A stretch of DNA of 64,000 nt, from contig NZ_BLPF01000001.1 in the NCBI RefSeq assembly GCF_011764425.1, positions 2,037,001-2,101,000 of the forward strand, written 5' to 3'. The translations under genes were made by a program, and so were the position numbers. Shown here in pieces: positions 17,632-33,252 of this stretch (position 1 is the first letter of the stretch; every line of letters begins with the position of its first letter). The DNA comes from Phytohabitans houttuyneae. GTDB taxonomy: Bacteria; Actinomycetota; Actinomycetes; Mycobacteriales; Micromonosporaceae. The notes beneath the pieces are model-generated. The model worked only from the letters and a program-made list of their open reading frames with translations, had not been told where the DNA came from and did no database searches.

Positions 17632-18543
17632 GTGATCGTGACAGACCTTCACATCCGGGTCGGCCCCCATGTCGCCGAGGCGCTGCGCACCGGCCAGCCC
17701 GTCGTGGCCCTCGAGAGCACGATCGTCTCACACGGCCTGCCCCGCCCGGACAACCTTCGGGTGGCCCGCGAGATCGAGCGGGCGGTCCGCGCCACAGGCG
17801 CCGTACCAGCGACGATAGGCATGATCGAGGGCGCGCTCACCGTGGGCCTCGACGACGAGCAGCTGACCCGCCTCGCCACCGCGGACGGCGTCGCCAAGCT
17901 CTCCGTGCGCGACCTCGCCGTCGCGGCCGCCGCCGGCGCGGACGGCGCCACCACGGTCGCCGCCACCAGCGCGGTCGCGGTCGCCGCCGGCATCGGGGTC
18001 TTCGCGACCGGCGGGCTCGGCGGGGTGCACCGCGAGGCCTTCGACGAGTCGAACGACCTCATCACGCTCGCCCGCACCCCCATCACCGTGGTCTGCGCCG
18101 GCGTGAAGTCGATCCTGGACGTGGGCGCCACCCTGGAGCGGCTGGAGACGCTGGGCGTGACCGTCGTCGGGTACGGCACGCGCCGCTTCCCCGGCTTCTA
18201 CATCACCGACGCCGGCTTCGACCTGGACTGGTCGGTGGAGACGCCCGAGCAGGTGGCGGCCGTGATGGCGGCGCGGCGCGCGCAGGGCGTGCACGGCGGC
18301 GGCCTGGTCGTGGCCAACCCGCTCCCGCTCGACGAGCAGCTCGACCCGGAGCTGCACGACCGTACGCTCGCCGAGGGGCTGGAAAAGCTGCGCGGCGAGG
18401 GGATCACGGGCAAGGCGGTGACGCCGTTCCTGCTCGCGCACTTCCACGCCGCGACGGAGGGGCGGAGCCTCGCTGTCAACGTGCGGATCATCCTGCGCAA
18501 CGCCGAGCTCGCCGGCCGCATCGCGGTGGCGGCAGCAGCTTGA
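17632..18543 (+). CDS. psuG: Pseudouridine-5'-phosphate glycosidase
   Basis: A 303-residue enzyme of the PsuG/IndA family that cleaves pseudouridine 5'-phosphate into uracil and ribose 5-phosphate. Conserved stretches include [16 protein letters not shown] (about 26), [20 protein letters not shown] (Lys/Asp chemistry region), and [20 protein letters not shown] (about 153) with the Schiff-base lysine. The start is GTG at 17632 or 17638. Its stop overlaps the start of the PfkB-type kinase (TTGA), which provides the substrate, so the pair is a complete pseudouridine-salvage operon. Confidence 0.92.
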
Positions 18544-19439
18544 TCATCGTCGTCGGAGACCTCGTCACGGACGTGGTTGCGGCGCTCGACGGGGCGCCCG
18601 CGGCGGGCACCGACACGGGCGCGCGGATCCGCTTCGCCGGCGGCGGGCAGGGCGCCAACACCGCCGCGTGGCTGGCCGCCGAGGGCGCACCCGTCACGCT
18701 GGTCGCCGCGGTCGGCGACGACGAGCCGGGCCGGACCCGGGTGGCGGAGCTGGCGGCCGCCGGGGTGCGCTGCGCGGTCCGCGCCCACTCCGGCACGCCC
18801 ACCGGTACCGTCATCGTCCTCAGCCACGACGGCGAGCGCACGATGATCAACGACCGCGGCGCCGGCCTGCTGCTCTCCCCCGCCGACATCGACGCCGCGC
18901 TGGCCGCCGCGCCGGGCGCGCGGCACGTGCACGTCTCCGGGTACCCCCTGCTGGACCCGGCCTCCCGCGGCGCCGGCCTGCGCGCGCTGGCCGCGGCCCG
19001 CGAACATGGGCTGACCACCAGCGTCGACGCGGCGTCCGCGGGCCCGTTGCGGCGCGCGGGCGCCGCCTTCCTGGGTTGGGTACGAGCCATCGACCTCGTC
19101 CTCGCGAACGCCGACGAAGCCGCCGTGCTGGCCGGCGGCACCGACCCGGTCGCGCAAGCTCGCACGCTCGCCACGGTCGCGGTGCACGCGGTGGTGAAGC
19201 GCGGCCCGGCGGGCGCCGTCTGGGCCGGCCCGGACGGCGTGCACGAGGCACCCGGCCGCCCCGCGCACACGGTCGCCGACCCGACCGGTGCCGGCGACGC
19301 CTTCGCCGCGGGCCTGCTCTCCGCCTGGCTCGGCGGCGCGGAGCCGCGGGAGGCGCTGGACCGCGCGGTAGCCCTGGGCACGAAGGCGGTCGGCCTGCTC
19401 GGCGCCCGCCCGCCGCTTGAGGGCCGGGGTTCGCGTTAA
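18540..19439 (+). CDS. psuK: PfkB-family kinase, probable pseudouridine kinase
   Basis: A 299-residue ribokinase-fold sugar kinase. It has the N-terminal GGG motif [15 protein letters not shown] (about 33) and the anion-hole/catalytic motif [12 protein letters not shown] (about 243-254). Linkage to psuG points to phosphorylation of pseudouridine; sequence alone would only give PfkB. The start is TTG at 18540, overlapping the psuG stop by 4 nt, which implies translational coupling. Confidence 0.85.
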
Positions 19440-19443
19440 GTCC

Positions 19444-19791
19444 TTAGCCGTCGGCGTCGATGGTGCGGGGCGGGGGTTTGCTCGGCAGCGCCTGCCGAGG
19501 GCCTTCCTCCGCTTCGGGCGGCTTGTGCCGGAAGCGGTACTGCTCCTTGGGCGGGCGGTCGTTGGCCAGGATCACGGCCAGCCATGGGATCAGGACCATG
19601 CCCAGCAGGCAGAGTGGCAGCCAGAGCCAGAGCAGCGGTGCCTTCGTGCCCACCAGGACCGCGGCGACCAGCAGGCAGACGCCTCGGATGGACATCATGA
19701 CGACGTACCGCACCTGGCGGCTGCGCAACTGCTCCGCCTGGCTGCGGTCAGCGCCGGTGATCAGGATCGGCCGCTGGGCCTTTCGCTTCAC
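19444..19791 (-). CDS. DUF3099 membrane protein
   Basis: A 115-residue protein with two hydrophobic helices (YVVMMSIRGVCLLVAAVLVG and LWLWLPLCLLGMVLIPWLAV) between basic termini. It matches the small actinobacterial DUF3099 family; function unknown. It starts at GTG/ATG 19791 and converges with psuK (4 nt between the stops). Confidence 0.8.
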   Translation of the reverse strand: MKRKAQRPILITGADRSQAEQLRSRQVRYVVMMSIRGVCLLVAAVLVGTKAPLLWLWLPLCLLGMVLIPWLAVILANDRPPKEQYRFRHKPPEAEEGPRQALPSKPPPRTIDADG

Positions 19792-19839
19792 CCGTCCATC
19801 CTTCCACTCGCTTCACCGTCCCGATTTTTGGCCGCCGTC

Positions 19840-19861
19840 GCGTATTACGCGCGTGGTACGC
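19840..19861 (+). promoter_or_regulatory. Tandem palindromic operator in the toxin-antitoxin promoter
   Basis: Two directly adjacent 11-bp units, GCGTATTACGC (19840-19850) and GCGTGGTACGC (19851-19861), differ at two bases, and each has GCGT/ACGC arms. The second overlaps a -10-like TACGCT (19857-19862) only 7 nt before the toxin GTG. This suggests a leaderless mRNA and autorepression by the ribbon-helix-helix antitoxin (inference). Confidence 0.6.
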
Positions 19862-19869
19862 TCTGGCGC

Positions 19870-20157
19870 GTGGGGAGCAGGTTCAGCTTCACCGAAGAGG
19901 GCCTGGCCAACCTGCGGCTCTACGAGGTGAGTCCGGGCGAGGTCTGGGAAGCCCTCCACAGCACGCGCCGGATCATCCGGCACCTGGGCGACGACGTCAT
20001 GGTCGTCTACGCGGCGACCGGTCGCGGGCGGCGGCTCGCGATCCTGCTCATCGAGGCGGACCGCGGTGACAACGACTGGGACGTCCTGTCCGCCCGCGAT
20101 CTGACCGACGTCGAGTCCAAGCGGTACGACGAGGCACAGCAGGGGTGGCGACGATGA
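19870..20157 (+). CDS. BrnT-like toxin of a type II toxin-antitoxin pair
   Basis: A 95-residue protein, VGSRFSFTEEGLANLRLYEV..., with a central beta-rich stretch RRIIRHLGDDVMVVYAATGR and WDVLSARDLTDVESKRYDEA near the end. The length, the phrase WDVLSAR and the location directly upstream of a ribbon-helix-helix gene resemble BrnT-type RNase toxins, where toxin precedes antitoxin. Family assignment is by resemblance only. GTG at 19870 begins within 8 nt of a -10-like element, so the transcript may be leaderless. It overlaps the antitoxin gene with ATGA. Confidence 0.6.
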   Translation: MGSRFSFTEEGLANLRLYEVSPGEVWEALHSTRRIIRHLGDDVMVVYAATGRGRRLAILLIEADRGDNDWDVLSARDLTDVESKRYDEAQQGWRR

Positions 20158-20465
20158 ACAGAAACGACGCGCTCAAGCAGTTCCACGAGGGTGGCGACCG
20201 GCTCGCCGAGCTCATCGACGAAGGTCAGCCGGCAGAGCTGCCCGCCCCCGACAGCGACGTGCCGATGGTCAGCCGGTCCGTGCGGCTGCCGGTCGATACG
20301 TACGAGCGGGTGCGGGAGGCCGCCGAGGCGCGCGGCATCGGAGTCACCACCCTGATGCGGCAGTGGATCGAGGCGGGCTTAGCCGACCTCGACGAGTCCG
20401 CGACCGTCTCGCTCGCCGACGTGCGGCGGGCCATCGCGGCGCTCGCGCACCCGCGCGCCGCCTGA
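20154..20465 (+). CDS. Ribbon-helix-helix/CopG-type antitoxin
   Basis: A 103-residue protein. The N-terminal part (NDALKQFHEGGDRLAELIDE) is likely the toxin-binding region. The C-terminal half has SRSVRLPVDTYERVREAAEA followed by GIGVTTLMRQWIEAGLADLD, a ribbon-helix-helix DNA-binding pattern with a beta-strand then two helices. The ATG at 20154 overlaps the toxin stop by 4 nt; a GTG at 20145 is an alternative. Its 3' end lies inside a 43-bp tandem duplication. Confidence 0.7.
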   Translation: MNRNDALKQFHEGGDRLAELIDEGQPAELPAPDSDVPMVSRSVRLPVDTYERVREAAEARGIGVTTLMRQWIEAGLADLDESATVSLADVRRAIAALAHPRAA

Positions 20466-20527
20466 GCGCTACTTCTTCGCGGCGCTCGCGCACCCGCGCG
20501 CCGCCTGAGCGCTACTTCTTCGCGGCG
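20434..20527. repeat. 43-bp tandem duplication across two convergent gene ends
   Basis: The sequence from 20434 repeats exactly with period 43 until 20527 (about 2.2 copies). Each unit holds TGA (antitoxin stop) and, on the other strand, TAG (stop of the HhH-GPD remnant). It is probably a recent slippage or recombination event. Confidence 0.9.
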
Positions 20528-21012
20528 GCAGCGGCCTTGGCGTCCGCCTTGGCCTGCTGCTTGTACTCGCGCACCTTCACCAGTGCCGCGGCGTCGACGA
20601 TGTCGGCCACCGACTTGTAGGCGTCGTCCGGCCCGTACGCCCCGGCGGCCTCGCGCCACCCCGCAGGCCGCACGCCGAAGCGCTTGCCGAGCAGCGCCAC
20701 GAAGATCTGCGCCTTCTGCTTGCCGAAGCCGGGCAGCGCGCTGACCCGCTTGAAGAGCTCCTTGCCGTCGCCCGCGGTGGTCCAGATGCTTTCTGCCTCG
20801 CCACCGTACGTATCCACCACGATGCGGCACGCCTCCTGCACCCGAGCGGCCATCGCCTTCGGAAAGCGGTGCAGCGCGGGCGGGGTGGCGAAGATGGCGG
20901 TCAGCGCCTCCGGATCGAAGTCGGCGAGCTCCTCCGCGGTCGGCTCGTGTCCGAGCCGGCGGCTCAGCTCGTACGGCGCGGAAAACGCACGCTCCAGCGG
21001 AAACTGCTGGTC
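20512..21012 (-). pseudogene. 3' part of a host HhH-GPD DNA-repair gene split by the element
   Basis: The reading frame begins without any ATG, GTG or TTG at DQQFPLERAFSAPYELSRRL and runs to AKAAAAAKK-stop. It is homologous to residues 29-191 of the intact gene at 21038-21613. It contains the helix-hairpin-helix LPGFGKQKAQIFVALLGKRF. The missing first 29 codons are found at 30767-30855, and joining them restores an uninterrupted frame. Only MAARVQ (20853) could serve as an internal start, which would lose the first half of the fold. The family corresponds to the uncharacterised actinobacterial HhH-GPD group thought to act in base-excision repair. Confidence 0.88.
21005..21012. other. Left attachment junction (attL)
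   Basis: TGCTGGTC. To its left lies host repair-gene sequence; to its right, element sequence. The right junction reads TGGTGGTC (30764-30771). The shared core TGGTC (21008-21012) is GACCA in the gene sense, within the codons for L-D-Q-Q. Confidence 0.75.
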
Positions 21013-21037
21013 GCAATAGGCAGCCGGATGTATGTAC

Positions 21038-21613
21038 CTACTCCTTGGCAGCCTTCGCGGCGGCCTTCATCTCCTTCTTGTACGCCCGCACCTTGAGCAG
21101 CGACGGCTCGTCCACGATGTCGGCCACCGACTTGTACGTGCGGTCCGGCCCGTAGTCGCCCGCCGCCTCGCGCCAGCCCTTCGGACGCACCTCGTACCGC
21201 TTGCCGAGGAGCGCGATCAGGATCTGCGTCTTCTGCTTGCCGAAGCCGGGCACCTCGGAGATCCGCTTGAACAGCTCCTGGCCGGTCTTGGCCTCACCCC
21301 ACAGCCGCGCGGCGTCACCGTCGTACTTGTCGACCAGGAGCTGGCAGACCTCCTGCACCCGCTTCGCGTTGGCCTTCGGGAAGCGGTGCAGCGCCGGCGG
21401 CGTGGCGAAGATGACGGTCAGCGCCTCCGGGTCGAAGTCGGCCAGCTCCTGCGCGGTGGGCTCGTGCCCGAGCCGCCGCACCAGCTCGTACGGCGACGAG
21501 AACGCCTTCTCGAAGGGGATCTGCTGGTCGAGCGTCATCCCGATGAGGAGCGCAAGCGGGTTGCGCTGGAGCAGGGCGTTCGCCTCTGCGTCGATGGGCA
21601 GCGTAATCGCCAT
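21038..21613 (-). CDS. HhH-GPD base-excision repair protein, element-borne intact copy
   Basis: A 191-residue protein, MAITLPIDAEANALLQRNPL..., of the uncharacterised actinobacterial HhH-GPD family. Features are LLIGMTLDQQIPFEKAFSSP (about 22-41), the helix-hairpin-helix VPGFGKQKTQILIALLGKRY (about 120-139) and a Lys/Ala-rich tail. It is probably a DNA glycosylase-like repair protein; the substrate is unknown. The ATG at 21613 has GGAGG 8 nt upstream. Its stop lies about 25 nt inside the left junction of the element. It is clearly homologous, but not identical, to the host gene the element interrupted, so it probably substitutes for it. Confidence 0.85.
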   Translation of the reverse strand: MAITLPIDAEANALLQRNPLALLIGMTLDQQIPFEKAFSSPYELVRRLGHEPTAQELADFDPEALTVIFATPPALHRFPKANAKRVQEVCQLLVDKYDGDAARLWGEAKTGQELFKRISEVPGFGKQKTQILIALLGKRYEVRPKGWREAAGDYGPDRTYKSVADIVDEPSLLKVRAYKKEMKAAAKAAKE

Positions 21614-21744
21614 GGCGGCCTCCGGAGGTAGCGGGCTACGCCCTACATCCTGCACTGCCTCCCCGCAGGAGTGCGCAGCCGCACTGCCGGCGCCCGCCAA
21701 CGACGTTTGTCCGGCGGGTGGCAGCTCGACCGCGAATGGGTTGG

Positions 21745-21769
21745 CGCAAACTCGCGCACAAGCCTTGAG
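21745..21769 (+). promoter_or_regulatory. Shared regulator motif, copy 1
   Basis: A 25-bp motif beginning CGCAAACTCGCGCACA and ending TTGAG. It matches copy 2 (23428-23452) at 21 of 25 positions. It lies about 65 nt before the first regulator operon of the element, so it is a candidate binding site or promoter for the HTH/DUF5753 regulators. Confidence 0.55.
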
Positions 21770-21834
21770 GCCATTGCCGCGCGCCCCACAAACTCGGAGG
21801 CGCCGACAATTCTTATCGCGGAAGGATCGTCAAC

Positions 21835-22062
21835 ATGGCACTCCGGTTCCTGGGGAAAGATCCCGACAGCCCGAACGGCGAGTCGCCTACGCTCTACTAC
21901 GACGAAGATCGGGACACGTACGTATTCCAAGGCTGGAAGGTCACCGACGCCGAGCGCTTGGCGCAGTTGGACATCCCGGCTCACGAGACCGTGATCGAGT
22001 TTCCGAAGCGCATGATGCGTTTCTTTCCGGAGGTGAGTGGTGGCGGCGGAGCCGACGCTTGA
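21835..22062 (+). CDS. Small hypothetical protein of the regulator operon
   Basis: A 75-residue acidic protein, MALRFLGKDPDSPNGESPTL..., with YYDEDRDTYVFQGWKVTDAE and a C-terminal Gly stretch. No family is recognised with confidence. It opens a three-gene operon with a DUF6879 protein and an HTH/DUF5753 regulator. The start ATG has GGAAGGA about 8 nt upstream. The next gene starts inside its last 25 nt, implying coupling. Confidence 0.65.
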   Translation: MALRFLGKDPDSPNGESPTLYYDEDRDTYVFQGWKVTDAERLAQLDIPAHETVIEFPKRMMRFFPEVSGGGGADA

Positions 22063-22558
22063 GGATCTGATGCGCTCCTGCGAGCGGTCCGCGGTTCATC
22101 TGGAGCTGCGGGACGGCTACACGCGAAACGATCCGATGCTCGACGACTGGCTTGCCGGCGTCCGGCTCGATCCGGCCGATCGGGCGTCGTGGTGGCATCC
22201 GTGGCTGGAGCTCGTGGAGGAAACGATCGGGCGCGGCGTCAGCGTGCGCCGCGCCCGGATCGTCTCCACGCCGGTCAGCGAGTACATCCGGTACGAGTAC
22301 GACGTCACGTTCCGAAACATCCTCGTCGGCGAAGAAGTGCGCTGGCTGTCGCGGCGCGATGCCACCGACATTCCGTTGCCTGGCAACGACTTCTGGCTCT
22401 TCGACGACCGTCTCCTGCTGGTGTACCACTTCGATGGCAAGGACGACCTGGCGGCTCGGGAGGTCACCCGCGAGCCTGGCGTGGTCAAGCTCTGCGGGTC
22501 GGCGTTCGAAGCGGTGTGGGAGCGCGCCACGCCACACGACGACTTCCGGCTCGACTGA
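22040..22558 (+). CDS. DUF6879 family protein
   Basis: A 172-residue protein, VAAEPTLEDLMRSCERSAVH..., with the family patterns SVRRARIVSTPVSEYIRYEY and GNDFWLFDDRLLLVYHFDGK. DUF6879 proteins are coupled to HTH/DUF5753 (Scr1-type) regulators across actinomycetes, and a toxin-antitoxin-like or signalling role has been suggested. The molecular function is unknown. The GTG at 22040 follows GGAGG (22029-22033); a GTG at 22037 is also possible. It overlaps the upstream gene and lies 12 nt before the regulator gene. Confidence 0.75.
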   Translation: MAAEPTLEDLMRSCERSAVHLELRDGYTRNDPMLDDWLAGVRLDPADRASWWHPWLELVEETIGRGVSVRRARIVSTPVSEYIRYEYDVTFRNILVGEEVRWLSRRDATDIPLPGNDFWLFDDRLLLVYHFDGKDDLAAREVTREPGVVKLCGSAFEAVWERATPHDDFRLD

Positions 22559-22570
22559 CACACTCGTCTC

Positions 22571-23422
22571 GTGGCGTCCCCGTCGTCCAGCGCACAGCAG
22601 GCGCTCGAAGCGCTCGGCACGCGGCTGCGCGAGATCCGCATCGACGCGGGCCTGACCGGGCGCGACCTCGGCCAGCTGGCCGGCTGGCACTCCTCGAAGG
22701 TCAGCCGCATCGAGCACGCCCGGCAGACCCCGTCCACCGACGACATCACCGCGTGGTGCAAGCATTGCGGCGCCGTCGACCAGGCGGCCGACCTCATCGC
22801 GTCGCTGCGCGCGGCCGAGGGCATGTACGTCGAGTGGCGCCGCATGGAACAGAGCGGCCTACGCGTGGCGCAACAGGCGGTCGTGACGCTCTGGGAGCGG
22901 ACGCGCCACTTCCGCATCTACTCCCCTCGCCTGATCCCCGGCCCGGTCCAGACACGCGCCTACATCGCGGCGATGCTTGAGGGTGTACGCGCTCGCCGCG
23001 AAGTACCGGACGATGTGGACGCCGCGGTGCGGGTCCGAGTGGAGAAGCAACGCGTCATCCACGAGGGCGCCCATCGGTTCGCCATCCTCCTTGAGGAGAG
23101 CGTGCTACGGCACCCTATCGGTGACACGGAGACGATGGCCGGCCAACTCGGCTATCTGCTGACCGCCAGTGCCTTGCCTTCCGTGTCGCTGGGCGTCATC
23201 CCACTCGGCGCCGACCGCTCCGGCCAACTCGCCGTCGAGGGCTTCTGGCTCTTCGATGAGAAACAGGTCAATGTGGAGCTGGTCTCCGGGCATCTCACCC
23301 TCACACAGCCAAGCGAGATCACCATGTACGCCGAGGTCTTCGCTCGACTCGCCGATCTCGCCGTGTACGGCTCCGCCGCCCGCACTCTGATCACGGCAGC
23401 GATCAACGGGCTAAGCGATTGA
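22571..23422 (+). CDS. HTH regulator with DUF5753 domain (Scr1 family)
   Basis: A 283-residue protein. The N-terminal Xre-type helix-turn-helix covers about residues 13-70 (LGTRLREIRIDAGLTGRDLG, WHSSKVSRIEHARQTPS). The DUF5753 domain follows at about 90-275, including RHFRIYSPRLIPGPVQTRAY and RFAILLEESVLRHPIGD. Scr1-type regulators are numerous in Streptomyces and relatives and are linked to development or antitoxin-like pairs. The start is GTG at 22571. It is the last gene of the first regulator operon and may act at the 25-bp motifs upstream of both operons. Confidence 0.85.
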   Translation: MASPSSSAQQALEALGTRLREIRIDAGLTGRDLGQLAGWHSSKVSRIEHARQTPSTDDITAWCKHCGAVDQAADLIASLRAAEGMYVEWRRMEQSGLRVAQQAVVTLWERTRHFRIYSPRLIPGPVQTRAYIAAMLEGVRARREVPDDVDAAVRVRVEKQRVIHEGAHRFAILLEESVLRHPIGDTETMAGQLGYLLTASALPSVSLGVIPLGADRSGQLAVEGFWLFDEKQVNVELVSGHLTLTQPSEITMYAEVFARLADLAVYGSAARTLITAAINGLSD

Positions 23423-23427
23423 GGCGT

Positions 23428-23452
23428 CGCAAACTCCCGCACATTCATTGAG
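23428..23452 (+). promoter_or_regulatory. Shared regulator motif, copy 2
   Basis: Begins CGCAAACTCCCGCACA and ends TTGAG, matching copy 1 at 21 of 25 bases. It begins 5 nt after the stop of the first HTH gene and about 60 nt before the second regulator operon. Confidence 0.55.
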
Positions 23453-23512
23453 CCGCGTTCGGCGCCGTACCTAGCGTCCTCCGGCAAGCGCTCAGCGCGG
23501 GAGGTGATTGGT

Positions 23513-23689
23513 GTGGGCCAGATCGTGATGGTCGCGGTCGCGTTGGTGGTGGGCTTCCTCGCCGGCCTGTTGGCGTTCAAGCGGTCAAACCGTTGGTGCC
23601 CTTCGTGCGGCTACCCGCTGGCCTGCGTGCGTTGCCACCGATCTCGCGCGGACGCGGTTCCTGATGGTCCGACGCGCCGGGCTGCCTGA
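23513..23689 (+). CDS. Small membrane protein with CxxC pairs
   Basis: A 58-residue protein with one N-terminal hydrophobic helix (IVMVAVALVVGFLAGLLAF) followed by CPSCGYPLACVRCHRSRA, two CxxC pairs that could bind zinc. Function unknown. The GTG at 23513 is preceded by GGGAGG; a GTG at 23504 would add three residues. It opens the second regulator operon. Confidence 0.6.
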   Translation: MGQIVMVAVALVVGFLAGLLAFKRSNRWCPSCGYPLACVRCHRSRADAVPDGPTRRAA

Positions 23690-23717
23690 CACCCGGCCGT
23701 AACGAGGAGGTTCGGCG

Positions 23718-24644
23718 GTGCCGACCAAACGAGAGCAGTTTCAGCACTCCATCCGTGCTCGCTATCTGGGCGAGCGGATGCGCAGCCTGCGGGAGGAGCG
23801 CGGCCTGACGTTGAAGTACATCGCCGCGTTCCTCGGCGTGGAGTTCTCCACCCTGGCCCGGTACGAACGGGCGGAGTGGCCGTTCCGCGCCGACCACGTG
23901 ACGGCGCTGCTCGACGTGTACGGCGTGTACGGGGAGCGCCAGCGCGAGGAGCTGGTGGCGCTGGCACGCAACGCGTGGCGGGTGTGCGGCTGGGAGGTCG
24001 CCGGCGTCAAAGACACCGGCACGGCTGGGGTCAACGAGCAGCCGATCATCGACCACTGGTGGATCCAGTCCAGGGCCGAGGAGTTGTGCGTCTACTCGCC
24101 CGCCCTGGTGCCGACGTTGTTGCGCGCCCGCGACTACGCCGAGGCGCTGATCCGCTTTCGCGACCCGAACACGCCGGTGATGAAGGTCGAGGCGGAGGTC
24201 CGCGAGCTGGTGGAGCGGCAGCAGGTGTTGGACGCCCGGCCACCCATGCGGCTCACGGTGATCCTGGAGGAGGCGGCGCTGTCCCGCCGCATCGCCGGGC
24301 CGGCCGTGACCCTGGCACAGTGGGAGCACTTGGTCCGCGCGGTCGAACGGCCGCACGTCACCGTCCTGGTCCTGCCCAGCAGCGCCGCCCTGCATCACGG
24401 CATCGACGGTGGCTTCACCCTCTGTCGGATGCACGCGCCGTACCCGCCGGTGGCGCTGCTCGACCAGCTCACCGGTCGCGCGGTGGTGGAGGCCGACGCG
24501 GCAGAGCGGTACAGCGTCGCGTTCGACAAGTTGAAGGAGGCGGCGCTCAACCCGGCGCATTCGATGGCGCTGATCGAGCAGGAGATCAACGACCTCGGCA
24601 CGCTGGGACGGACGCCGGCCACTCGTGAGGCGGCGACCGCATGA
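23718..24644 (+). CDS. HTH regulator with DUF5753 domain, second copy
   Basis: A 308-residue protein. The Xre-type HTH lies at about residues 17-75 (LGERMRSLREERGLTLKYIA, LGVEFSTLARYERAEWPF). The DUF5753 domain runs from about 110 to 285 (EELCVYSPALVPTLLRARDY, MRLTVILEEAALSRRIAGP). It is only distantly similar to the regulator at 22571, so the two are not a recent duplication. GTG at 23718 has GAGGAGG upstream. The last 4 nt overlap the following small gene (ATGA). Confidence 0.85.
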   Translation: MPTKREQFQHSIRARYLGERMRSLREERGLTLKYIAAFLGVEFSTLARYERAEWPFRADHVTALLDVYGVYGERQREELVALARNAWRVCGWEVAGVKDTGTAGVNEQPIIDHWWIQSRAEELCVYSPALVPTLLRARDYAEALIRFRDPNTPVMKVEAEVRELVERQQVLDARPPMRLTVILEEAALSRRIAGPAVTLAQWEHLVRAVERPHVTVLVLPSSAALHHGIDGGFTLCRMHAPYPPVALLDQLTGRAVVEADAAERYSVAFDKLKEAALNPAHSMALIEQEINDLGTLGRTPATREAATA

Positions 24645-24853
24645 CGATCCCGTTCGACTCTGACGCTAACCGTGCTGCGGTAACGATGGCGGCGCAACGG
24701 ATCTCTGCCTATGCTGACGCACACGGCATCGTCATCGACGAGGTGCACTGCGAGGACATCGCCCAAGCCGTCGTTCAGATCTATCAGGCATTCCATGCCG
24801 GCCTCCTACACAGGCCGCAAGTCGACGACGCACCGCAATCGATCACCTCGTAA
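24641..24853 (+). CDS. Small hypothetical protein coupled to the second regulator
   Basis: A 70-residue protein, MTIPFDSDANRAAVTMAAQR..., rich in Ala and acidic residues and probably helical (ISAYADAHGIVIDEVHCEDI). No family recognised. ATG overlaps the TGA of the regulator gene by 4 nt, which argues that it is a translated partner. A strong hairpin follows 10 nt after the stop. Confidence 0.6.
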   Translation: MTIPFDSDANRAAVTMAAQRISAYADAHGIVIDEVHCEDIAQAVVQIYQAFHAGLLHRPQVDDAPQSITS

Positions 24854-24862
24854 CGCTTCGGT

Positions 24863-24900
24863 CCTGGGTTCGTCTCTACACCTTCGGCGGCGAACCCGGG
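24863..24900 (+). terminator. Terminator hairpin after the second regulator operon
   Basis: A 10-bp stem CCTGGGTTCG / CGAACCCGGG with one T-G wobble and an 18-nt loop. It separates the regulator operon from the reverse transcriptase gene. The roughly 220 nt that follow contain no gene and are lower in GC. Confidence 0.6.
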
Positions 24901-25122
24901 CCCGCGCCTCGTGGCAGGACTTGCAAGCGGCGACCGACTGTCTACGTGGATCGACCAAGACGCACGCACCGTTCCACAAGCCCGGGCCGGATTCTACTCA
25001 TAACCCCGATCTCCTATTATTGTCGCGCCCTCTTTGCCTGCATAACGGTGTGACGACCCGACCACCGGTGGCATATCGTTAACCTCTGGCAAACTGGCGG
25101 GAGCGCACGCGAGGGGTACAAG

Positions 25123-26648
25123 ATGGACTGGGAGACAGTCGTAGACATAGACCAAGCCTTGATTAACTGCCACATTGAGTTGATCGGAGATTGGTACAGG
25201 GATCCATGGGATGGCCCGAATTGGATTGGGTCGCCAAGAAACACAAAGAATTAGTGTTTGCACGATTAAAGGCATCGGGCGCCCGAAGCGTTTCACCAAT
25301 CGATGTTCCCAAAGAGAATTTCATGATCAGGCCAGCGGTTGTTATCGACCCAGTGGATAGACTGGCATATCAAGCCTTAACAGATCGTTTGAGCAAGAGC
25401 GTGATCGGCGAGATGCACCGTCAAGCCTACGGATGGCGCCTTCATGTTAAGGACCCGAAGCCCGGCGCCTATTCGACCAACGACGCCCAGTGGGAACTCT
25501 ACCGTAATCACCTCAGCGCACTAGTCGCTAACTTTGAGGTCGCACTGAAGACAGACGTTGTGTCATGCTTCGCAAGTCTTCGACTTGACGTCATAGCGGA
25601 TGAATTTTACGCCCGAGCAGGAAGCAGCGCGGTCGTGGAGCGCACCCTCTCGATGCTCGAGTCGTGGGAAAAGGCACCCAATCGCTCAGGAATCCCTCAA
25701 CGATCGCTCGCTTCAGCAGTCCTCGGAAACATGGTCCTTTCGCGTATTGACGATATCCTCAAGTACCATGCCAAACCCATGTCTCCGGCCGAAGCGGGCC
25801 TAAGTTTCGCTCGATGGATGGACGATATTTGGCTCTTTGGGTCCGACGCAGGCGACCTCCGATCTGCCCAGATCGAGATTCAGGATGGCTTGCAAGCACT
25901 CGGTTTGCATATCAATACTGGAAAAACCAAGTTGCTTGAAGGATCTGAAATTGCAGATCACGCCCTAAACGTCGCGCACAGTGCAGTAGACGACGGATTC
26001 CTAAGTCTTATCGCCGGCAAACCAGCGGATACTGGGCCGCTCGATGAGTTGGTCGAGAAACTCTTGGCAGAGAAAGAAGAAGCTAGCAGAACTAGCATAA
26101 AGTTTGCAACGAAGCGCATGCGAGAGCACAAGCACTTCTCCAAGGTGGACGGCTTCGTGGACGTGGCTCCGCGCATGCCTCATGCCGCCGATGCGCTCGC
26201 GCGCCTATTTAGAGATGCCGATCGAGCGAACGAACTGGCAAGCTGGTATCTCGAATATCGTTCAACCCCATGGGCCAAGTTACAGTGGTCTAGCGCGCAG
26301 CTTGGGACTATGTTTTCGTCCAGTGTTCGGCCACAGGTCGAGGTAGTCGACCACTTTGCAGAGATTCTTTCGGCAGGTGGTCTGTCGCTCCCAATGGCGG
26401 CCTTAGCAGCCCAACGTCTGGCAAGCTGGGATGCCTCGAAAGCCCGTGCTGTCATATCTGAAGCCGTCAAGAAATCCGACAGCGCTCTGCAACGCAGAGT
26501 TTTAGCCTTGGCCGCCCTCCATGCTGACCACAACCGGACGATTATCAAGAAGTGGCTAAACGACTTCGAAGAAAACTCACTAACCCTAGAAATGCTGAAG
26601 GAAACCAACTTCAAGAAACCCAAACTCAAGCCAGATTTTGAAGGGTGA
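25123..26648 (+). pseudogene. Reverse transcriptase of the Abi/DRT (defence) type, frameshifted near the start
   Basis: About 508 residues if one G is added to the run at 25208-25210. The first 29 codons (MDWETVVDIDQALINCHIEL to RDPW) then join GWPELDWVAKKHKELVFARL. RT motifs in reconstructed numbering: RPAVVIDPVDRLAYQAL (about 70), motif A LKTDVVSCFASL (about 142), GIPQRSLASAVLGN (about 190), catalytic FARWMDDIWLF (DD about 234-235), and LGLHINTGKTKLL. The last 200 residues are alpha-helical, like the repeat domain of Abi-type RTs. No maturase, integrase or protease domain is present. Base composition is far less GC-rich than its neighbours, a sign of transfer. GAGGGG precedes ATG 25123. As sequenced, translation could begin only at TTG 25191 or ATG 25206. 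Confidence 0.82.
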
Positions 26649-26663
26649 CCTCATGGCTCGCCC

Positions 26664-26809
26664 CCATCCCGTGTGCCGTCGACCCGCACGTACGTGGAGC
26701 GGGCCGCCGCCCGGGGCGCCACGTCAAGCGGACCTTGACGGTAAAACGGCGGCTGGCGCCCCGGGCGGGGGTCTGCTCGGCTCGCCCGGGTCGACGGCGC
26801 ACGGGATGG
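26664..26809. repeat. 146-nt nested inverted repeat downstream of the reverse transcriptase
   Basis: Outer arms of 23 nt (26664-26686 and 26787-26809) match with one mismatch. Inside are perfect 15-bp arms CCGCCCGGGGCGCCA (26707-26721) and TGGCGCCCCGGGCGG (26754-26768), and inside those a 7-bp hairpin CGTCAAG / CTTGACG (26722-26740). A 10-bp palindrome CACGTACGTG sits just inside the left outer arm. Such a fold suits a single-strand origin of a rolling-circle replicon or a structured RNA for the adjacent reverse transcriptase; the sequence does not decide. The whole 26,649-27,144 spacer appears to be non-coding. Confidence 0.8.
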
Positions 26810-27020
26810 CTCAGCGCCCACCCACGGACCGCAACACGCGCGCGGAGCGAGACGATCCCGGAGCCGGAGCGCCCCCGCCGGAGGCGCCCTGACCGCAAGA
26901 GACGCGACGAGTGCCAGCGCAACGCCTCCTGGGCCAGGCACCACGCCGTCGCCTTCTCGCTCCTTGCGGAGAGGCGCCGTTGACATCCGGTGCGGGCGCT
27001 GCCGTAGCTGCGCGGGCTTG

Positions 27021-27114
27021 CCCCGGCCCGCGTCGCCGGAGGCGTAAGCGGGCCGGGGGCGCTTGCGCCCCGCCCTGAGCCGGCGGGCGCCACGGTGCGC
27101 CGCGTCAGCGGCGC
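27021..27114. repeat. Hairpin cluster between the reverse transcriptase and rep genes
   Basis: An 11-bp inverted repeat CCCCGGCCCGC / GCGGGCCGGGG (27021-27058) encloses CGCC-GGA-GGCG. Next to it are GGGGCGC-TT-GCGCCCC (27056-27071) and GCGCCGC-GTCA-GCGGCGC (27097-27114). The last lies 31 nt beyond the rep stop and may terminate rep; the others may belong to a replication origin. Confidence 0.7.
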
Positions 27115-27144
27115 CTTGACCCCGTATAGAAACTCGTAACCAGC

Positions 27145-28512
27145 TCACCCAGACCGGAAGTGCCGTTGCCGGGCCCGAATGGCGTCCACGATGGGCGCCT
27201 CCCCGTGCGCGAGTCCGGAGCGCATGAACCTCCACTTGGCATCGATGACGATGTTGCGACCGTCGAGCGGAGGTAGTCCCTGAGAGTGGCGGCGCTCAGC
27301 CTGCTGGTGGTCGCGGCGCTCCTGCTGGAGCCGGCCGTAGGTGGTCGAGTAGGCGAGGCTCTTCGTGGCGGCATGACCGCGGTAGCCCAGCATGTGCGCC
27401 CAACGAGCAAACGCGATGTCGCGGTGCGCTGGGTCGAGGTCCAGGGCGAAGCACTCCCGCACCATGCGTTCGGCATGCGCGGGCAAGTGGAGCCAGTACA
27501 GGTCATCGACGCTCTTAATCCTGCGTGGTGGCAGGCCGGCAATCTCGGCGCCCTTCGTGACGTACTTGGCGATGTACAGCGCAGCTCGCGGGCCGCTGAT
27601 GCCGTCGCCGGCCTGGCTCACCGGCTGCACGTCGAGCTGAGAACCGAAGCGCACCGTCCGCGAGAAAAGATCGACATACACCGCCGCTGCGGCATGACGT
27701 AGGCCGGACTCCAGCAGCTCCACACGCGCCCACGAGGGCGGAGCCGAGGACGGACCGGACGGGCCGTCGATGCGAATCACGACGTGGAAGTGGATGACTC
27801 CCCTGGCCTGATACTCGGCGACCTTGAAGAAGGACACCTTGGCCACCTTGCCGAGGCTCGTCCGGCTGGTCCCGACACGCGCTGCGATCTCGCGGCGCAG
27901 GTAGATGGTGAGCCGCTTCCACAGCTCGCCCGCGTACGCGTTGAACAGCACCGCGCCGGTGTAGTCGTAGCACTCCAGGCACATCGCCTGACCGACCCGA
28001 GGATCACCCTCACCATGCCGCTCCCGGCACGACATCACCACACCGTGCGGGCACGGCTCCGCGTCACGGCGGACGCGACAGCGCAACGGCTTCCCGTCCT
28101 TGCCGAGCTGCTTATGCCTACTGTGGACCGCGCCGAACGATGGGGCCGTCAGCGTGGCGAAGATGGCCGGATGCTCGGCCACCGACTCCGGCACGCCCTT
28201 GCCGCCGACCAGGCCGGCGCGCCCGATCTGAAACGTGTCGTCCTTCTTGACCTGGGCGCACGACGGGCAGATGACCGCCCGCCGGTTGCCGCACCGGACG
28301 AGGCGGTAGCCGGTCGGCTCGTCGTCGGTGCAGTAGTGGTCCAGCACCTCGCCGGTGCCGGCGTCGACCACGGTCCGGTAGCCACGCAAGCGGATCGGGT
28401 TCGCGCACGCGCCTGTCAATCTAACTTGACGTTCCCAGGCCGGAAAGTCCGGCATGGCCATACGACTTGCCGCCGCTCGAACGTCCTCGGGCAGGTTCTC
28501 GAATCTGTTCAA
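27145..28512 (-). CDS. RepSA-like HUH replication initiator
   Basis: A 455-residue protein similar in length and layout to RepSA of pSAM2. The N-terminal zinc-ribbon-like cysteines are in CGNRRAVICPSC (74-85), with more Cys/His at 145-182. The HUH metal motif is GVIHFHVVIRIDG (His 241, His 243). The catalytic tyrosine region is ALYIAKYVTKG (Tyr 313, Tyr 317). Such proteins nick the double-strand origin and drive rolling-circle replication of the excised element. The start is TTG at 28512, overlapping the stop of the small upstream ORF (TTGA), so translation is probably coupled. Confidence 0.88.
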   Translation of the reverse strand: MNRFENLPEDVRAAASRMAMPDFPAWERQVRLTGACANPIRLRGYRTVVDAGTGEVLDHYCTDDEPTGYRLVRCGNRRAVICPSCAQVKKDDTFQIGRAGLVGGKGVPESVAEHPAIFATLTAPSFGAVHSRHKQLGKDGKPLRCRVRRDAEPCPHGVVMSCRERHGEGDPRVGQAMCLECYDYTGAVLFNAYAGELWKRLTIYLRREIAARVGTSRTSLGKVAKVSFFKVAEYQARGVIHFHVVIRIDGPSGPSSAPPSWARVELLESGLRHAAAAVYVDLFSRTVRFGSQLDVQPVSQAGDGISGPRAALYIAKYVTKGAEIAGLPPRRIKSVDDLYWLHLPAHAERMVRECFALDLDPAHRDIAFARWAHMLGYRGHAATKSLAYSTTYGRLQQERRDHQQAERRHSQGLPPLDGRNIVIDAKWRFMRSGLAHGEAPIVDAIRARQRHFRSG

Positions 28513-28682
28513 GCGGCCGCTCCGAAGTCGGAACGACAGACCCTTTCACCATCCGACGGTGCGGGCGGCTCGGCCAGGTCCAGGCCGAGTGTCGCGCAGA
28601 TGCGACGCCATTTCCGTTCAGACCAGGCGGGCGCTTCAGCAGCCTTTCGGCGTCCCCATTCCCGCGCGCTGATCGGGTCCAA
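28509..28682 (-). CDS. Small ORF coupled to the replication initiator
   Basis: A 57-residue basic protein reading (TTG start) LDPISAREWGRRKAAEAPAW, SERKWRRICATLGLDLAEPP and a short tail. It is too short for most ORF callers. The support is its stop overlapping the rep start by 4 nt, AAGGGAG upstream of the TTG, and a coding-like composition. The Trp/Arg pattern resembles small proteins seen before rep genes in other actinomycete elements (from memory). Role unknown, possibly control of rep. Confidence 0.6.
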   Translation of the reverse strand: MDPISAREWGRRKAAEAPAWSERKWRRICATLGLDLAEPPAPSDGERVCRSDFGAAA

Positions 28683-29141
28683 GATTGGGCGGCTCCCTTC
28701 CTCGATTCCAGGAAAAGAGCGCGCGAGATCGCCACACCGGCATCCAGCGTCCGACGTGCGAATACAGAAGAGAGGTTGCTACGGAAGCACAATCATGGAA
28801 TCGAAGAAGGTGTGGCCTGTATGCGTCTGCCTACCGCCAGCAAAATTGTAGGTCCGGGTGAGTCCTACGACAGCGGTCCCCATGCGGCAAATCCCGGTCA
28901 GCTTGTAAAGGCAGAGGGCGCGTGCTTCCGTATTCGGTTGTGGCGATGTCTCGCGGCTCTGCAATCGAGAGTAGCCACGCCATCCGACAGTCTCAGCGAA
29001 TAAAAGCGGCCACCAATATCGACTTCCACCGAGCGTCACGGTGAAGGCCGGTCACAGCCGTCACCAGTCGGTACCCGCGGGTACACGCTGACAACCAATG
29101 ACAAACGCTGACCGAAGTGACGCAGACCACAAACGTCACTC
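28683..29141. other. Non-coding stretch upstream of the rep operon
   Basis: About 460 nt without a supported gene, between the 3' end of the recombinase gene and the rep operon, both on the minus strand. It must hold the rep promoter. The part next to the recombinase contains the phased TGAC/GTCAC repeats annotated separately. Confidence 0.5.
29051..29139. repeat. Helically phased TGAC/GTCAC repeats (iteron-like)
   Basis: TGAC occurs at 29089, 29099, 29109 and 29118, i.e. at spacings of 10, 10 and 9 bp, with CGCTGAC twice 20 bp apart. Opposed GTCAC copies lie at 29051, 29060 and 29135. The phasing suggests binding of a protein to one face of the helix, such as Rep or a regulator. Confidence 0.55.
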
Positions 29142-30739
29142 TCAGTCCTCGCGCCAGATTGGCTCCAACCGCTCCGGGTTCCAGCCGCGCTTTCCGCCCG
29201 CCGGGTACACCAGCACCGCCGCGAGCACGTCCTCGATGTAGGCCCGCTTCTCCGCCAGCCCAAGCTTCGGCCACTTGGCCCGAAGGTCAACCGGCCTGCC
29301 CGCCGCGGCGTACTGCTTGGCGAGCCAGGCGTCGCGCTCCCCGCTCAAGGTCTGCTCCTCGCGCTCCAGCTCAGGCAACATCGCGAAGTAGCGACTGCTC
29401 GAAATCCGCTGGGGACGCGCCCGCCAAGCCGCAGTCAGGTCGGCGATGTCCTGGCGGATCTGGGCCAGCTCAGCTTCTCGCGCCCACGGCGAAGGAGCGC
29501 TCCTCGCCTCGCGCCGCTGCGCCTCCAGCTCGTACTTCGCGATGACCGCTTCCGCGATGAACTCATCGGTCTTGCCGCCCGGGATGCTCACCCCACCACA
29601 GCCGCCCTTGGCACGGCTCTCACAGGCGTAGTAGAAGAGCCCCGGCGTCTTCACCCGACTCTCGTGCGCCTTGATCGCCCGCAGCTTGTGGCCGCAGTCC
29701 GGCTTGCCGCAGCGCAAAGTGCCGGTCAGCAGGTAGATACGCGCATTCGTACCTCGTCCACGGACGGCGTTCGACCCGATGATCGCCGTGACAGCCTGCC
29801 ACTCCCCGACCGTCAGGATCGGCTCGAACTGACCGATCACCGGCTCCCCCGACGCATCACGCACCACCTCCATGCGCACGTGCTCCTTGCCGGTATCGGG
29901 GTCGACCTCCCGCACGTGACGCGAGCGGTAGCCGCAGATGCGCGGGTTACGCAACACCTGCTTGACCGACTCGGCCACCCACTCCTTGCCGAGCGGCGTC
30001 TGGAGACCTGAGGCCCGCCATTGGGCTACGACCGCAGCGAGCGGCGCGCCCTCCAGGAGGCGCTGCGCGGCCTTCCTCACCGCGTCCGCTTCCAAAGGCT
30101 CCAGCGTGCGCAGATCCCGCTTCCACCCGAATGGACGCCGGCCGCCGGTGGGGTTCCCGCCTGCTCCATCGCCCGGTGCTTGCGGCGCACCCGGCGCGCC
30201 GCGTCCACCGACTGCTTGTGGTAGGTCGCCACTACGATCCGGGCGACAGTCCGGCCGTTGTCGGTAAGCAGGTCGAGGGTGCCGGTGATGTCCAGGATGG
30301 GGCGGCCGAAGTGCTCGACCACCTCGATGCAGTCTTCGAGGTGGCGGTTGTCGCGTGTGAGCCTGTCGATGTCGTAGACGATGAGGCCGTCAAGCCGCTG
30401 CCCATCAGGCGTCAGCCCGCGCTTGAGATCCTCCAGCGCGCCCTCGAAGACCGGGCGCACCACCCGGTACGCCATCCGCCCGTCCGGCAGCCGCACCCGC
30501 TTGCGCTTGTAGGCGCTGGTGTCCGGTTCCTCGTACGTGAAGACGTAGTTGCCCTTGCGGCCCTCGACGTAGCCGCGACAGTCCTTGGTCTGCTCGTCCC
30601 GGCCCTTGATGTCCCGGCCGGTCATGTACGGCGAGCCTGCGCGCTGCCCTTCAAATTCGAACGACAGCCGGACGAGTCCGGCGAGGTTCAGACCCTCCAG
30701 GTCACCCCAGTGCGCCCGTTGTACCAGCTCACCGCCCAT
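29142..30739 (-). pseudogene. Large serine recombinase (integrase) of the element, frameshifted
   Basis: Two overlapping frames reconstruct a protein of about 532 residues. The N-terminal resolvase-type domain has LAGLVRLSFE (catalytic Ser near residue 26), RDIKGRDEQTKDC and DGLIVYDIDRLTRDNRHLED. The second frame holds the recombinase domain (EADAVRKAAQRLLEG, TPLGKEWVAESVKQVLRNPR), a zinc-ribbon stretch LRCGKPDCGHKLRA with FYYACESRAKGGCGG, a coiled coil and a C-terminal tail. The break is at GGGG 30150-30153; one more base gives the canonical GGRRPFGWKRDLRTLEPLEA. It is probably an assembly error. It integrates the element into the HhH-GPD gene; the right junction lies 25 nt upstream of its start. 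Confidence 0.85.
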
Positions 30740-30855
30740 GCATCAAACATACGTTCGCCTGTGTGGTGGTCCAGAATCATGCCGACCAACAGAGCCAACG
30801 GGCTCCGCTGGAGCAGCTCGTTGGCTTCGGCGTCGATGGGCAGGTTGAGCGTCAT
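30688..30855 (-). pseudogene. 5' part of the split host HhH-GPD gene, fused to element sequence
   Basis: From ATG 30855 the frame reads MTLNLPIDAEANELLQRSPL then ALLVGMILD, which is host-gene sequence, and leaves homology at the core (30767-30771). It then continues 26 codons into the element (HHTGERMFDAWAVSW...) and stops at 30688. It thus makes a 55-residue chimera that overlaps the recombinase start (30739) in another frame. Joined to 20512-21012, it forms a complete gene of the same family as 21038-21613. Confidence 0.85.
30764..30771. other. Right attachment junction (attR)
   Basis: TGGTGGTC; host repair-gene sequence lies to its right and the element with its recombinase to its left. 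The core TGGTC (30767-30771) is shared with the left junction. Confidence 0.75.
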
Positions 30856-31077
30856 AGCCCCATCCTGCCCGATCCGCGCGGCGGCCGGGTGCGGGTGCGC
30901 GGCGCGCTCCACTATGGAAAGCGGCGGAGAGCGCACGATTGCCGATCTCGGGGAGGTAATCTCACGCCGTCGACATATGTGGCAGGTCGTCCCACCGAGG
31001 ATGTTGCGGGGCGCCGCAGGCGTACGGGGGCGCGGCGGTCGGGCGCGGATGGCGGACCCACTGGACAGGAGGCTCCC

Positions 31078-31614
31078 GTGAGTAGGTACGTCATCACCAT
31101 CACGCCCGACGACGGCGGCGCCGCCGCCGGCGCCGCGGCACACACCACCGTGCGAGTGGACATCTCCACCGGACAGACGCGAATCACCGAGCTCACCGTG
31201 CGCGCGGCCAGCGGCGGTGGCCTCGCCCCGGCCGACCTGCCACCGGTCGACCTCGACCTGCTGGTGCGCGCACTCACCGCACCCGCACCACCGGCCGCTC
31301 TGCCACCCGTCGCCGAGACCGTCGATGAAGAGGTCGCGCCCGCACCGCGCCGCCGCGCCCGCAAGACCGCGGCCAAGAAAGCGACGGCCAAAGCCACCAC
31401 CCGGTCCGCCGCGAAGAAAGCCACCAAACGCGGCGCCGAAAACACCGGCACCCGCGCGTACCGGCGGATGCCCGAAGCCGACGAGGTCATGGACGTGTAC
31501 CGGCAGACCGGCTCGATCACCGCGGTCGCCGAACACTTCGGTGTACCCCGCCACACCGTCGCCGGGTGGGCCCGCCGCCTGCGCTCACTGGGACACGCCA
31601 TCGGCCGGCAGTAA
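31078..31614 (+). CDS. HTH protein with histone-like Lys/Ala linker
   Basis: A 178-residue protein with three parts: a beta-rich N-terminus (VSRYVITITPDDGG, VRVDISTGQTRITELTVRAA), a basic Lys/Ala/Arg tract about 95-125 (RKTAAKKATAKATT) resembling histone H1 tails, and a C-terminal helix-turn-helix (DEVMDVYRQTGSITAVAEHF then VPRHTVAGWARRLR). It is likely a nucleoid-associated or regulatory DNA-binding protein of actinomycetes; its targets are unknown. GTG at 31078 has AGGAGG 5-6 nt upstream. It is divergent from the interrupted HhH-GPD gene, which may have shared its promoter region. Confidence 0.7.
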   Translation: MSRYVITITPDDGGAAAGAAAHTTVRVDISTGQTRITELTVRAASGGGLAPADLPPVDLDLLVRALTAPAPPAALPPVAETVDEEVAPAPRRRARKTAAKKATAKATTRSAAKKATKRGAENTGTRAYRRMPEADEVMDVYRQTGSITAVAEHFGVPRHTVAGWARRLRSLGHAIGRQ

Positions 31615-31692
31615 TCTCCGCACGGCTAGTCTTTCCTCGGGCTTTCGCCCCGTTCTGGTGCGATCGGGACAGCCGACGAGAGGGGCACAACC

Positions 31693-32820
31693 GTGCGGAA
31701 ATCCATGGTGGCTCTGGCTGCGGTGGCGGCGCTGACCGCCTGCTCGGGCGACGACGGGGGCGACAGCGGCGGTGGCGAGCCGACGCAGCCGGCGGCCACC
31801 GTGCCCACACCGACCGGCTCCGGCGCGAGCAGCACCCCCGGCGGCCCGCCGGACCTCGGTGCGCCGCAGCAGGTGGCGAGCGGGCTGGATGTGCCGTGGG
31901 GCCTCGCGTTCCTGCCGGACGGCAACGCTCTCGTGGCGGAGCGCGACACCGGCCGCATCCTCCAGGTCTCGCCCGGCGGGCAGGCGCGCGAGGTGTACGA
32001 GGTGCCCGGCGTGGACGCGGGCGGCGAGGGCGGCCTGCTGGGGCTCGCGGTGTCACCCGGCTACGCGCAGGACCGCTGGGTGTACGCGTACCACACGGCC
32101 GACTCGGACAACCGCATCGTGCGTTTCCGGCTGGACGGTGACGCCCGGCCCGAGGTCGTCTTCCGGGGCATCCGCAAGGCGGGCAACCACAATGGAGGGC
32201 GCATCAAGTTCGGGCCGGACGGCATGCTGTACGCCGGCACGGGCGATGCCGCAAACACCGCCTCCTCGCAGGATCCGGACAGCCCCAACGGCAAGATCCT
32301 GCGCCTGACGCCGGAGGGCGACCCGGCGCCGGGCAACCCGCGGGCGGACTCCCCGGTCTACACGATGGGCCACCGCAACGTGCAAGGGCTGGCGTGGGAC
32401 AGCGCGGGCCGGATGTACGCGACCGAGTTCGGCCAGAACCGCCTCGACGAGGTCAACCGCATCGAGGCGGGCAAAAACTACGGCTGGCCCGATGTGGAGG
32501 GCGAGGGCGACACGGACGGCGGGCGGTACACCAACCCGATCGTCACCTGGCCGACCGACGACGCCTCCCCCTCCGGCGCGGCAATCGCCGGCGACACGCT
32601 CTACGTGGCGGCGCTGCGCGGCGAGCGGCTCTGGACGGTACCCCTGAATGACGGCGAGGCCGGCGAGCCGCGCGCCGAACTGCGCGACCGCTACGGCCGC
32701 CTGCGCACCGTGGAGATCGCGCCCGACGGCGCGCTGTGGCTGGCCACGTCCAACCGCGACGGGCGCGGCGACCTCCGGGACGGTGACGATCGCGTCCTTC
32801 GCCACCCCGCGCGACCCTGA
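31693..32820 (+). CDS. PQQ-type sugar (glucose/sorbosone) dehydrogenase lipoprotein
   Basis: A 375-residue secreted protein. It has a lipoprotein signal VRKSMVALAAVAALTACSGD (lipobox LTAC), a Gly/Pro/Thr linker to about residue 55, then a six-bladed beta-propeller of the GSDH family. Typical segments are LDVPWGLAFLPDGNALVAER (about 66), GEGGLLGLAVSPGY, IRKAGNHNGGRIKFGPDGML and GHRNVQGLAWD. It probably oxidises aldose sugars with PQQ at the cell surface, but several homologues are not proven enzymes. The start is GTG 31693 with GAGAGGGG upstream. Confidence 0.85.
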   Translation: MRKSMVALAAVAALTACSGDDGGDSGGGEPTQPAATVPTPTGSGASSTPGGPPDLGAPQQVASGLDVPWGLAFLPDGNALVAERDTGRILQVSPGGQAREVYEVPGVDAGGEGGLLGLAVSPGYAQDRWVYAYHTADSDNRIVRFRLDGDARPEVVFRGIRKAGNHNGGRIKFGPDGMLYAGTGDAANTASSQDPDSPNGKILRLTPEGDPAPGNPRADSPVYTMGHRNVQGLAWDSAGRMYATEFGQNRLDEVNRIEAGKNYGWPDVEGEGDTDGGRYTNPIVTWPTDDASPSGAAIAGDTLYVAALRGERLWTVPLNDGEAGEPRAELRDRYGRLRTVEIAPDGALWLATSNRDGRGDLRDGDDRVLRHPARP

Positions 32821-32837
32821 GACGCCAGAATGGCCGG

Positions 32838-33251: not shown

Positions 33252-33252
33252 G

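Follow-up and report, generated by a model that had tools for sequence, protein, structure and literature searches.

A 9,759-bp insert in Phytohabitans houttuyneae is probably an integrative element that breaks a resident HhH-GPD gene and supplies a complete replacement copy of it. The insert lies within a 64,000-nucleotide stretch of contig NZ_BLPF01000001.1 (positions 2,037,001 to 2,101,000; here called the window). We propose that it is an element that encodes both a large serine recombinase and a replication initiator of the RepSA type, that it would enter the Leu-Asp-Gln-Gln codons of a resident TIGR03252 gene and break the resident copy, and that a complete copy near its left end would replace the lost gene, such that the cell keeps the function. 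In most such spare copies the target is recoded, which would lower attack by the element's own integrase. We favor replacement because the site is empty in all five congeners, because 8 of 10 elements carry an intact copy, and because spare and broken gene differ in ancestry in three of them. Moreover, a second close copy is otherwise rare, the elements of Actinokineospora sp. NBRC 105648 are nested, dN/dS (the ratio of nonsynonymous to synonymous substitution rates) is 0.08 to 0.26, the same layout recurs at a sirtuin gene in three of four cases, and the target is recoded. From the sequence, we infer expression of the spare and replacement of the lost function by it.

RESULTS

An insert splits a resident HhH-GPD gene and carries an intact one.

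A first-pass annotation made from the sequence alone had proposed that an integrated element separates the 5' and 3' parts of an HhH-GPD gene, which lie on the same strand with TGGTC at both breaks, and this was borne out (Table 1). Joining the outer flanks gave a 194-amino-acid open frame with no change of frame, and the joined gene aligned without gaps across the junction in five of five congeners, all of which have the gene whole. Identities in the 120 nucleotides around the join were 115 (L007), 113 (L008), 111 (L010), 92 (L005), and 90 (L006), and the genes flanking the insert on either side were also matched in congeners. The uninterrupted relatives that the annotation had advised seeking were found, and their sequence aligns with the joined product. 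The integration point in the resident TIGR03252 gene falls on its conserved Leu-Asp-Gln-Gln codons. The 15-base left-junction pattern CTGYTGRTCGCAAYA occurred once in the window and in none of 100 shuffles. Serine-recombinase integration at TGGTC inside a protein gene, with the corresponding attL, attR, and attB, is backed both by the uninterrupted congeners and by the similar junction arms of related elements. We note separately that a 43-bp sequence is directly repeated in tandem at positions 20437 to 20522, spanning the ends of a CopG-like gene and of the displaced HhH-GPD fragment.

That the element merely splits the gene did not hold, as an intact HhH-GPD copy inside the element had been overlooked. 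The spare begins about 25 bp inside the left core, shares its strand with the split gene, and belongs to TIGR03252 (256.1 bits against a curated cut-off of 136.5). Its DNA identity to the displaced copy is 77%. A second close copy is unusual: 34 of 41 genomes searched had an HhH-GPD match, and more than one close piece was found only in the genome of the window and in G032. Each of the five congeners had one close copy, and the second matches in G002, G025, and G028 reached only 25 to 29% identity. Seven pairs were run for dN/dS, of which three were saturated and four usable; comparisons among spares gave 0.21, 0.11, and 0.08, and that of the window spare with the G004 congener gene gave 0.26. 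The spares are thus kept as genes, under apparent purifying selection.

Table 1. Features of the window element and its junctions (positions within the window)
Feature	Position	Strand	Evidence
Displaced 3' part of resident HhH-GPD gene	20512..21012	-	96% identity to gene of congener G005; tree
Core TGGTC, left junction (attL)	21008..21012	.	Junction pattern and congener alignment
Left element arm, ATGTATG at 21028-21034	21013..21037	.	Read from sequence; similar arms in relatives
Intact spare HhH-GPD gene	21038..21655	-	TIGR03252 256 bits, cut-off 136.5; likely start ATG 21613, frame open to 21655
DUF6879 protein	22037..22558	+	PF21806 2.8e-54
Helix-turn-helix / DUF5753 regulator	22571..23422	+	Pfam
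Helix-turn-helix / DUF5753 regulator	23718..24644	+	Pfam
Reverse transcriptase class RT_UG33 (candidate defense-associated reverse transcriptase, DRT)	25191..26648	+	RT_UG33 4.1e-177, residues 6-484 of 485; RVT_1
RepSA replication initiator	27145..28512	-	PF20199 4.6e-143; NCBIfam RepSA below cut-off, 431.6 of 700
Recombinase piece, Recombinase and zinc ribbon domains	29142..30095	-	PF07508, PF13408
Recombinase piece, Resolvase domain, different frame	30077..30739	-	PF00239
Right element arm, CATACG at 30748-30753	30740..30766	.	Read from sequence; relatives compared
Core TGGTC, right junction (attR)	30767..30771	.	Junction patterns and congener alignment
5' stub of resident HhH-GPD gene	30767..30855	-	In-frame join with 20512-21012

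Related elements use the same codon.

Searching the genome collection with the Actinokineospora sp. NBRC 105648 integrase (L040/L079), which is intact, returned 30 loci. HhH-GPD pieces adjoined the integrase in 8 of them, with integrase identities of 67 to 100% (one being the query's own locus), and a further element was found in G750 (L135; integrase identity, 76%). With the window, ten elements have both gene parts readable, and all ten are split at the same codon. Thus, target and core are not specific to the window element, as had been supposed; nine other species share the codon. An intact extra copy lies between the integrase and the 3' part in the window and in seven of the nine relatives: NBRC 105648, Actinokineospora terrae, Saccharothrix sp. 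S26, Lentzea indica, Lentzea sp. NEAU-D7, Labedaea rhizosphaerae, and G750. The common order is 5' stub, integrase, spare, and 3' part. Outside the ten stand Dactylosporangium siamense (L086), the contig of which begins at the integrase, and G761, with pieces spread over several contigs; L. indica is counted on its stub, spare, and 3' fragment, as its left junction fails the TTGC pattern. Among Streptomyces loci with integrases of 53 to 57% identity, no adjoining HhH-GPD piece rose above chance level.

Pattern searches found ten right junctions and nine left ones. Beyond the fixed part, left arms read TGTTGC in eight of nine (ATTGC in the window), with CATACAT slightly further in for six of nine, and most right arms have GCACAC or GCACAG and then a motif resembling TGATGTATG; the patterns themselves fix part of the reported motif, and the agreement is to that extent built in.

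Two arrangements bear on how such sites are reused. In NBRC 105648 the pieces are nested: two 5' stubs and two 3' fragments accompany a single intact copy, the order expected had a second element entered the spare of the first. A Frankia-like genome (G399, C1 2987138-3029223; L066, L068, and L078) has one intact HhH-GPD gene and six successive 5' stubs cut at the same codon, three of which lie within about 100 bp of a gene for a more distantly related serine recombinase. The array suggests serial integration in which the element provides the 5' end.

Other loci resemble these in part. In L137 (G869), L138 (G861), L139 (G831), L140 (G863), and L141 (G792), a 5' stub is followed after about 0.7 to 1.9 kb by an intact gene, which looks like small cassettes without an integrase that replace the 5' end of the gene. 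A 253-amino-acid protein of L137 and L138 recurs in L079 and L082, in cassettes that lie between two 5' stubs, and a Fic protein takes that position in L080 and L085. In G032 (L038 and L039), a 3' fragment has the same left-junction motif, and the contig breaks off within a second copy about 0.65 kb further on; no integrase was seen there. The left-junction motif and a 3' fragment also occur in L145 (G773) and in L146 and L147 (G761) with no integrase nearby, possibly as large islands at the same site; the intact gene of G773 is 83 kb away. Finally, L142 (G224) shows 5' stubs and right-junction motifs only, and neither an intact gene nor a 3' part was found in that genome at expectation values (E) up to 1.

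Spares and broken genes differ in ancestry in three elements.

A gene tree of 48 rows, built without the G750 spare, clearly places spare and fragment apart for the window, L. indica, and Lentzea sp. NEAU-D7; in these three elements, the fragment falls with resident genes of the host genus and the spare elsewhere. The displaced window fragment groups with G002, G003, and G005 (support, 100/99), and the window spare falls outside that clade, its nearest row being the gene of congener G004 (78% identity). The resident window gene and the D. siamense gene belong to one 13-row clade (100/99). The fragment of Lentzea fradiae groups with Lentzea. The spares of L. indica, NEAU-D7, and Saccharothrix S26 form a set with resident gene L121 (94/89) beside resident Saccharothrix genes, and the Labedaea spare falls within the Actinokineospora set, together with L124, in a tree that contains no resident Labedaea gene.

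The integrase tree has similar sets (Lentzea-Saccharothrix-G750, Actinokineospora-Labedaea, and the window apart), a pattern that accords with spares moving together with their integrase. With midpoint rooting, integrases of the HhH-GPD elements form a grade around a clade with other targets; two Frankia integrases are not in this tree.

The integrase target is recoded in most spares.

Resident genes encode Asp-Gln-Gln as GAC CAG CAG in 33 of 45 rows, and two or more of the three codons end in A or T in only 3 of 45, versus 6 of 8 spares (Fisher P, 9e-5). All three end in A or T in 5 of 8 spares versus 1 of 45 residents (P, 1e-4). The comparison also holds within genes. In the spares, the third base is A or T in 22 of 32 Leu-Asp-Gln-Gln codons, where 8.2 would be expected from runs of four codons elsewhere in these genes (0 of 20,000 draws). 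For Asp and Gln codons, it is A or T at 17 of 24 target positions versus 41 of 151 elsewhere (P, 5e-5). The rows share ancestry, and all recoding P values are optimistic on that account; moreover, the idea arose from seven spares and was tested on those, on L135, and on the sirtuin set described below. The low GC content of the spares was considered as a cause and rejected, as the within-gene comparison still shows an excess at the target, but the lowest-GC 15-codon window of the spares usually lies away from it. The pattern of codons suggests that recoding may protect the spare from the element's own integrase.

A sirtuin gene is a second target in Streptomyces.

At four Streptomyces loci, the stub that adjoins a related integrase belongs to the 5' end of a sirtuin gene. 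An intact sirtuin lies between the integrase and a 3' fragment that starts at residue 14 to 17 in three of the four (G922, G924, and G925); G923 has no intact sirtuin in that layout, and G925 has no more than a piece of the integrase. All three sirtuin spares are recoded at the target, with 22 of 51 codons near it ending in A or T versus 99 of 654 elsewhere (P, 5e-6), an excess greater than that of any of 26 resident sirtuin genes. The residents show a mild excess too (60 of 439 near the target versus 359 of 5553 elsewhere). In G965, a sirtuin copy with an adjoining 3' fragment lacks the recoding; it is not among the spares counted.

A third target with alike behavior may exist at L095. There, another related integrase lies beside a stretch at about 9880 to 10000 that recurs some 7.5 kb on, at 17487 to 17729, with 86% protein identity.

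Other contents of the element.

The first-pass annotation placed a recombinase gene at the right end of the element, and its position stands. It is not a single open gene in the window: all three domains of a large serine recombinase (Resolvase, Recombinase, and zinc ribbon) are present, spread over two pieces in different frames, while the relative in L040 is intact at 530 amino acids. Either a mutation or a sequencing error could account for the frame change. Because the recombinase frame is broken, the window copy may now be fixed in place.

Recombinase pieces together with RepSA give the integrase and replication initiator that mark an actinomycete integrative and conjugative element (AICE). 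No FtsK-type transfer protein was found among the eight element proteins run against Pfam, a set that did not include small frames, and one relative (L084) has an FtsK_SpoIIIE protein. No RNA or tRNA target was found by Rfam over positions 18000 to 34000 or by a tRNA search over the window. A phage origin was set aside, as no relative was confirmed in viral_contigs (eight pattern matches, none confirmed). Phage records matched at an E of 1e-20 or better numbered 54, all below 60% identity and, among ten listed, at 29 to 32%; the plasmid collection gave two records at 34 to 36%.

The RT_UG33 profile matches most of its protein, which makes the window protein a DRT candidate; the gene sits in a low-GC patch (GC, 0.53 to 0.61). 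PADLOC, besides RT_UG33 in the window, matched PDC-S21 (L081), PDC-M55 A, B, and C (L083), HEC-04 (L102), and PDC-S35/TIR (L085), gave a weaker, partial match to a phosphorylase in L079, and gave none for the NACHT protein of L080. A candidate defense gene was thus present in six of the seven elements run through PADLOC, a set that did not include the cargo of L082, L084, and L135. The landing site would then also be a place of exchange for candidate defense cargo.

DISCUSSION

Why an intact copy lies beside a broken one could have other explanations. Perhaps the intact copy is a chromosomal tandem duplicate next to the insertion that does not travel with the element. The window copies are indeed adjacent and alike at 77% DNA identity, G884 has two intact copies close together, and the spare and fragment of A. 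terrae cluster together. The copy, however, lies between both junctions in eight of ten elements, five congeners have one close copy each, and the window fragment groups with congener genes at 100/99 with the spare outside, and we regard duplication as quite improbable. Alternatively, the spare might be passive baggage from an earlier host with no part in tolerating integration, as might be read from the two elements that lack one, from genomes missing the gene, and from 5'-replacing arrangements that keep the gene without a full copy. Retention in 8 of 10 under apparent purifying selection, and repetition at a second target gene in three of four, make this unlikely. Finally, the first-pass annotation took the element simply to disrupt the gene, which would be lost, at a site special to the element. 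Disruption holds for L. fradiae and Actinomadura atramentaria, where no intact copy was found; as a general account it is very improbable, since the window element has an intact TIGR03252 gene and shares its target with other elements.

Replacement by the carried copy nonetheless meets a number of observations that weigh against it. The intact copy is absent from the whole genome in the two exceptions just named, and, in one family, 27 of 297 genomes had no match at all and 24 of 297 had more than one at an E of 0.01; neither figure is a count of elements, as some second matches are distant or are pieces of a single gene spread over two contigs, and 5' stubs frequently fall short of the cut-off. 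Therefore, from the two elements without a copy and the 27 genomes without a match, the gene is not essential everywhere. As to ancestry, the S26 spare is close to genes of its own genus, and the fragment of that element groups with the one from Labedaea (100/99) and not with resident Saccharothrix genes; the A. terrae spare and fragment group at 95/82; and the tree gives no clear placement for the spare and fragment of NBRC 105648. As to recoding, the window and Labedaea spares are not recoded, the hit site of L. fradiae carries the recoded letters, and 3 of 10 other intact copies not classed as spares have two or three A/T-ending target codons (three in L144; two in L141 and L148). Moreover, with a 17-codon window, the target is among the A/T-richest stretches in few HhH-GPD spares (S26, 0.036; G750, 0.053; others, 0.11 to 1.0).

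A broader reading is that the element lineage lives in conserved protein genes by means of a complete, self-immunized (synonymously recoded) replacement, at no fewer than two targets (HhH-GPD and sirtuin), such that a costly target would become a safe harbor and foreign alleles would spread between genera. We hold this tentatively and would not put it at an even chance. If true, integrative elements would use conserved protein genes as landing sites while the host keeps the gene, and a spare gene with a silently recoded integrase target would be their predicted signature. It would also offer a serine recombinase family for actinomycetes in which attB and attP can be read, as well as a path by which resident genes are exchanged for other alleles.

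Our literature search turned up no description of an element carrying a spare copy of its protein target gene, of recoding, or of an HhH-GPD target, which is weak evidence, as subscription journals lay mostly outside its coverage. A survey of large serine recombinases (PMC10083194) likewise groups recombinases by the protein gene disrupted; its main text contains neither "HhH" nor "glycosylase," and the part covered does not mention spare copies. Among AICEs (PMC3218068), 19 of 144 have a serine recombinase, and Faln2929 disrupts a "putative endonuclease" gene, with excision detected. The window element is like AICEs in RepSA replication and, for some, in its serine recombinase, but an FtsK-type transfer gene was not found in it, and the covered part of PMC3218068 mentions no spare target gene.

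The closest known system is tRNA-dependent lysogeny of actinobacteriophages (PMC10865867), which has the same short common core, a target that is not rebuilt at the junction, and a complete replacement gene that is carried along. There, however, a phage with a tyrosine integrase enters a tRNA gene, whereas here a RepSA element with a serine recombinase enters a protein gene, and the need for the spare has been shown there, while the window element is known from its sequence. Rebuilding of a target at the junction, complete replacement for tRNA genes (PMC10865867), and serine-recombinase AICEs in protein genes (PMC3218068) are already known. In gene-rebuilding genomic islands (PMC12884075, PMC4383910), the host also retains the target gene, but those islands rebuild it at the junction and the window element carries a separate full copy. 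A 5'-rebuilding arrangement occurs at the same HhH-GPD site in five other loci.

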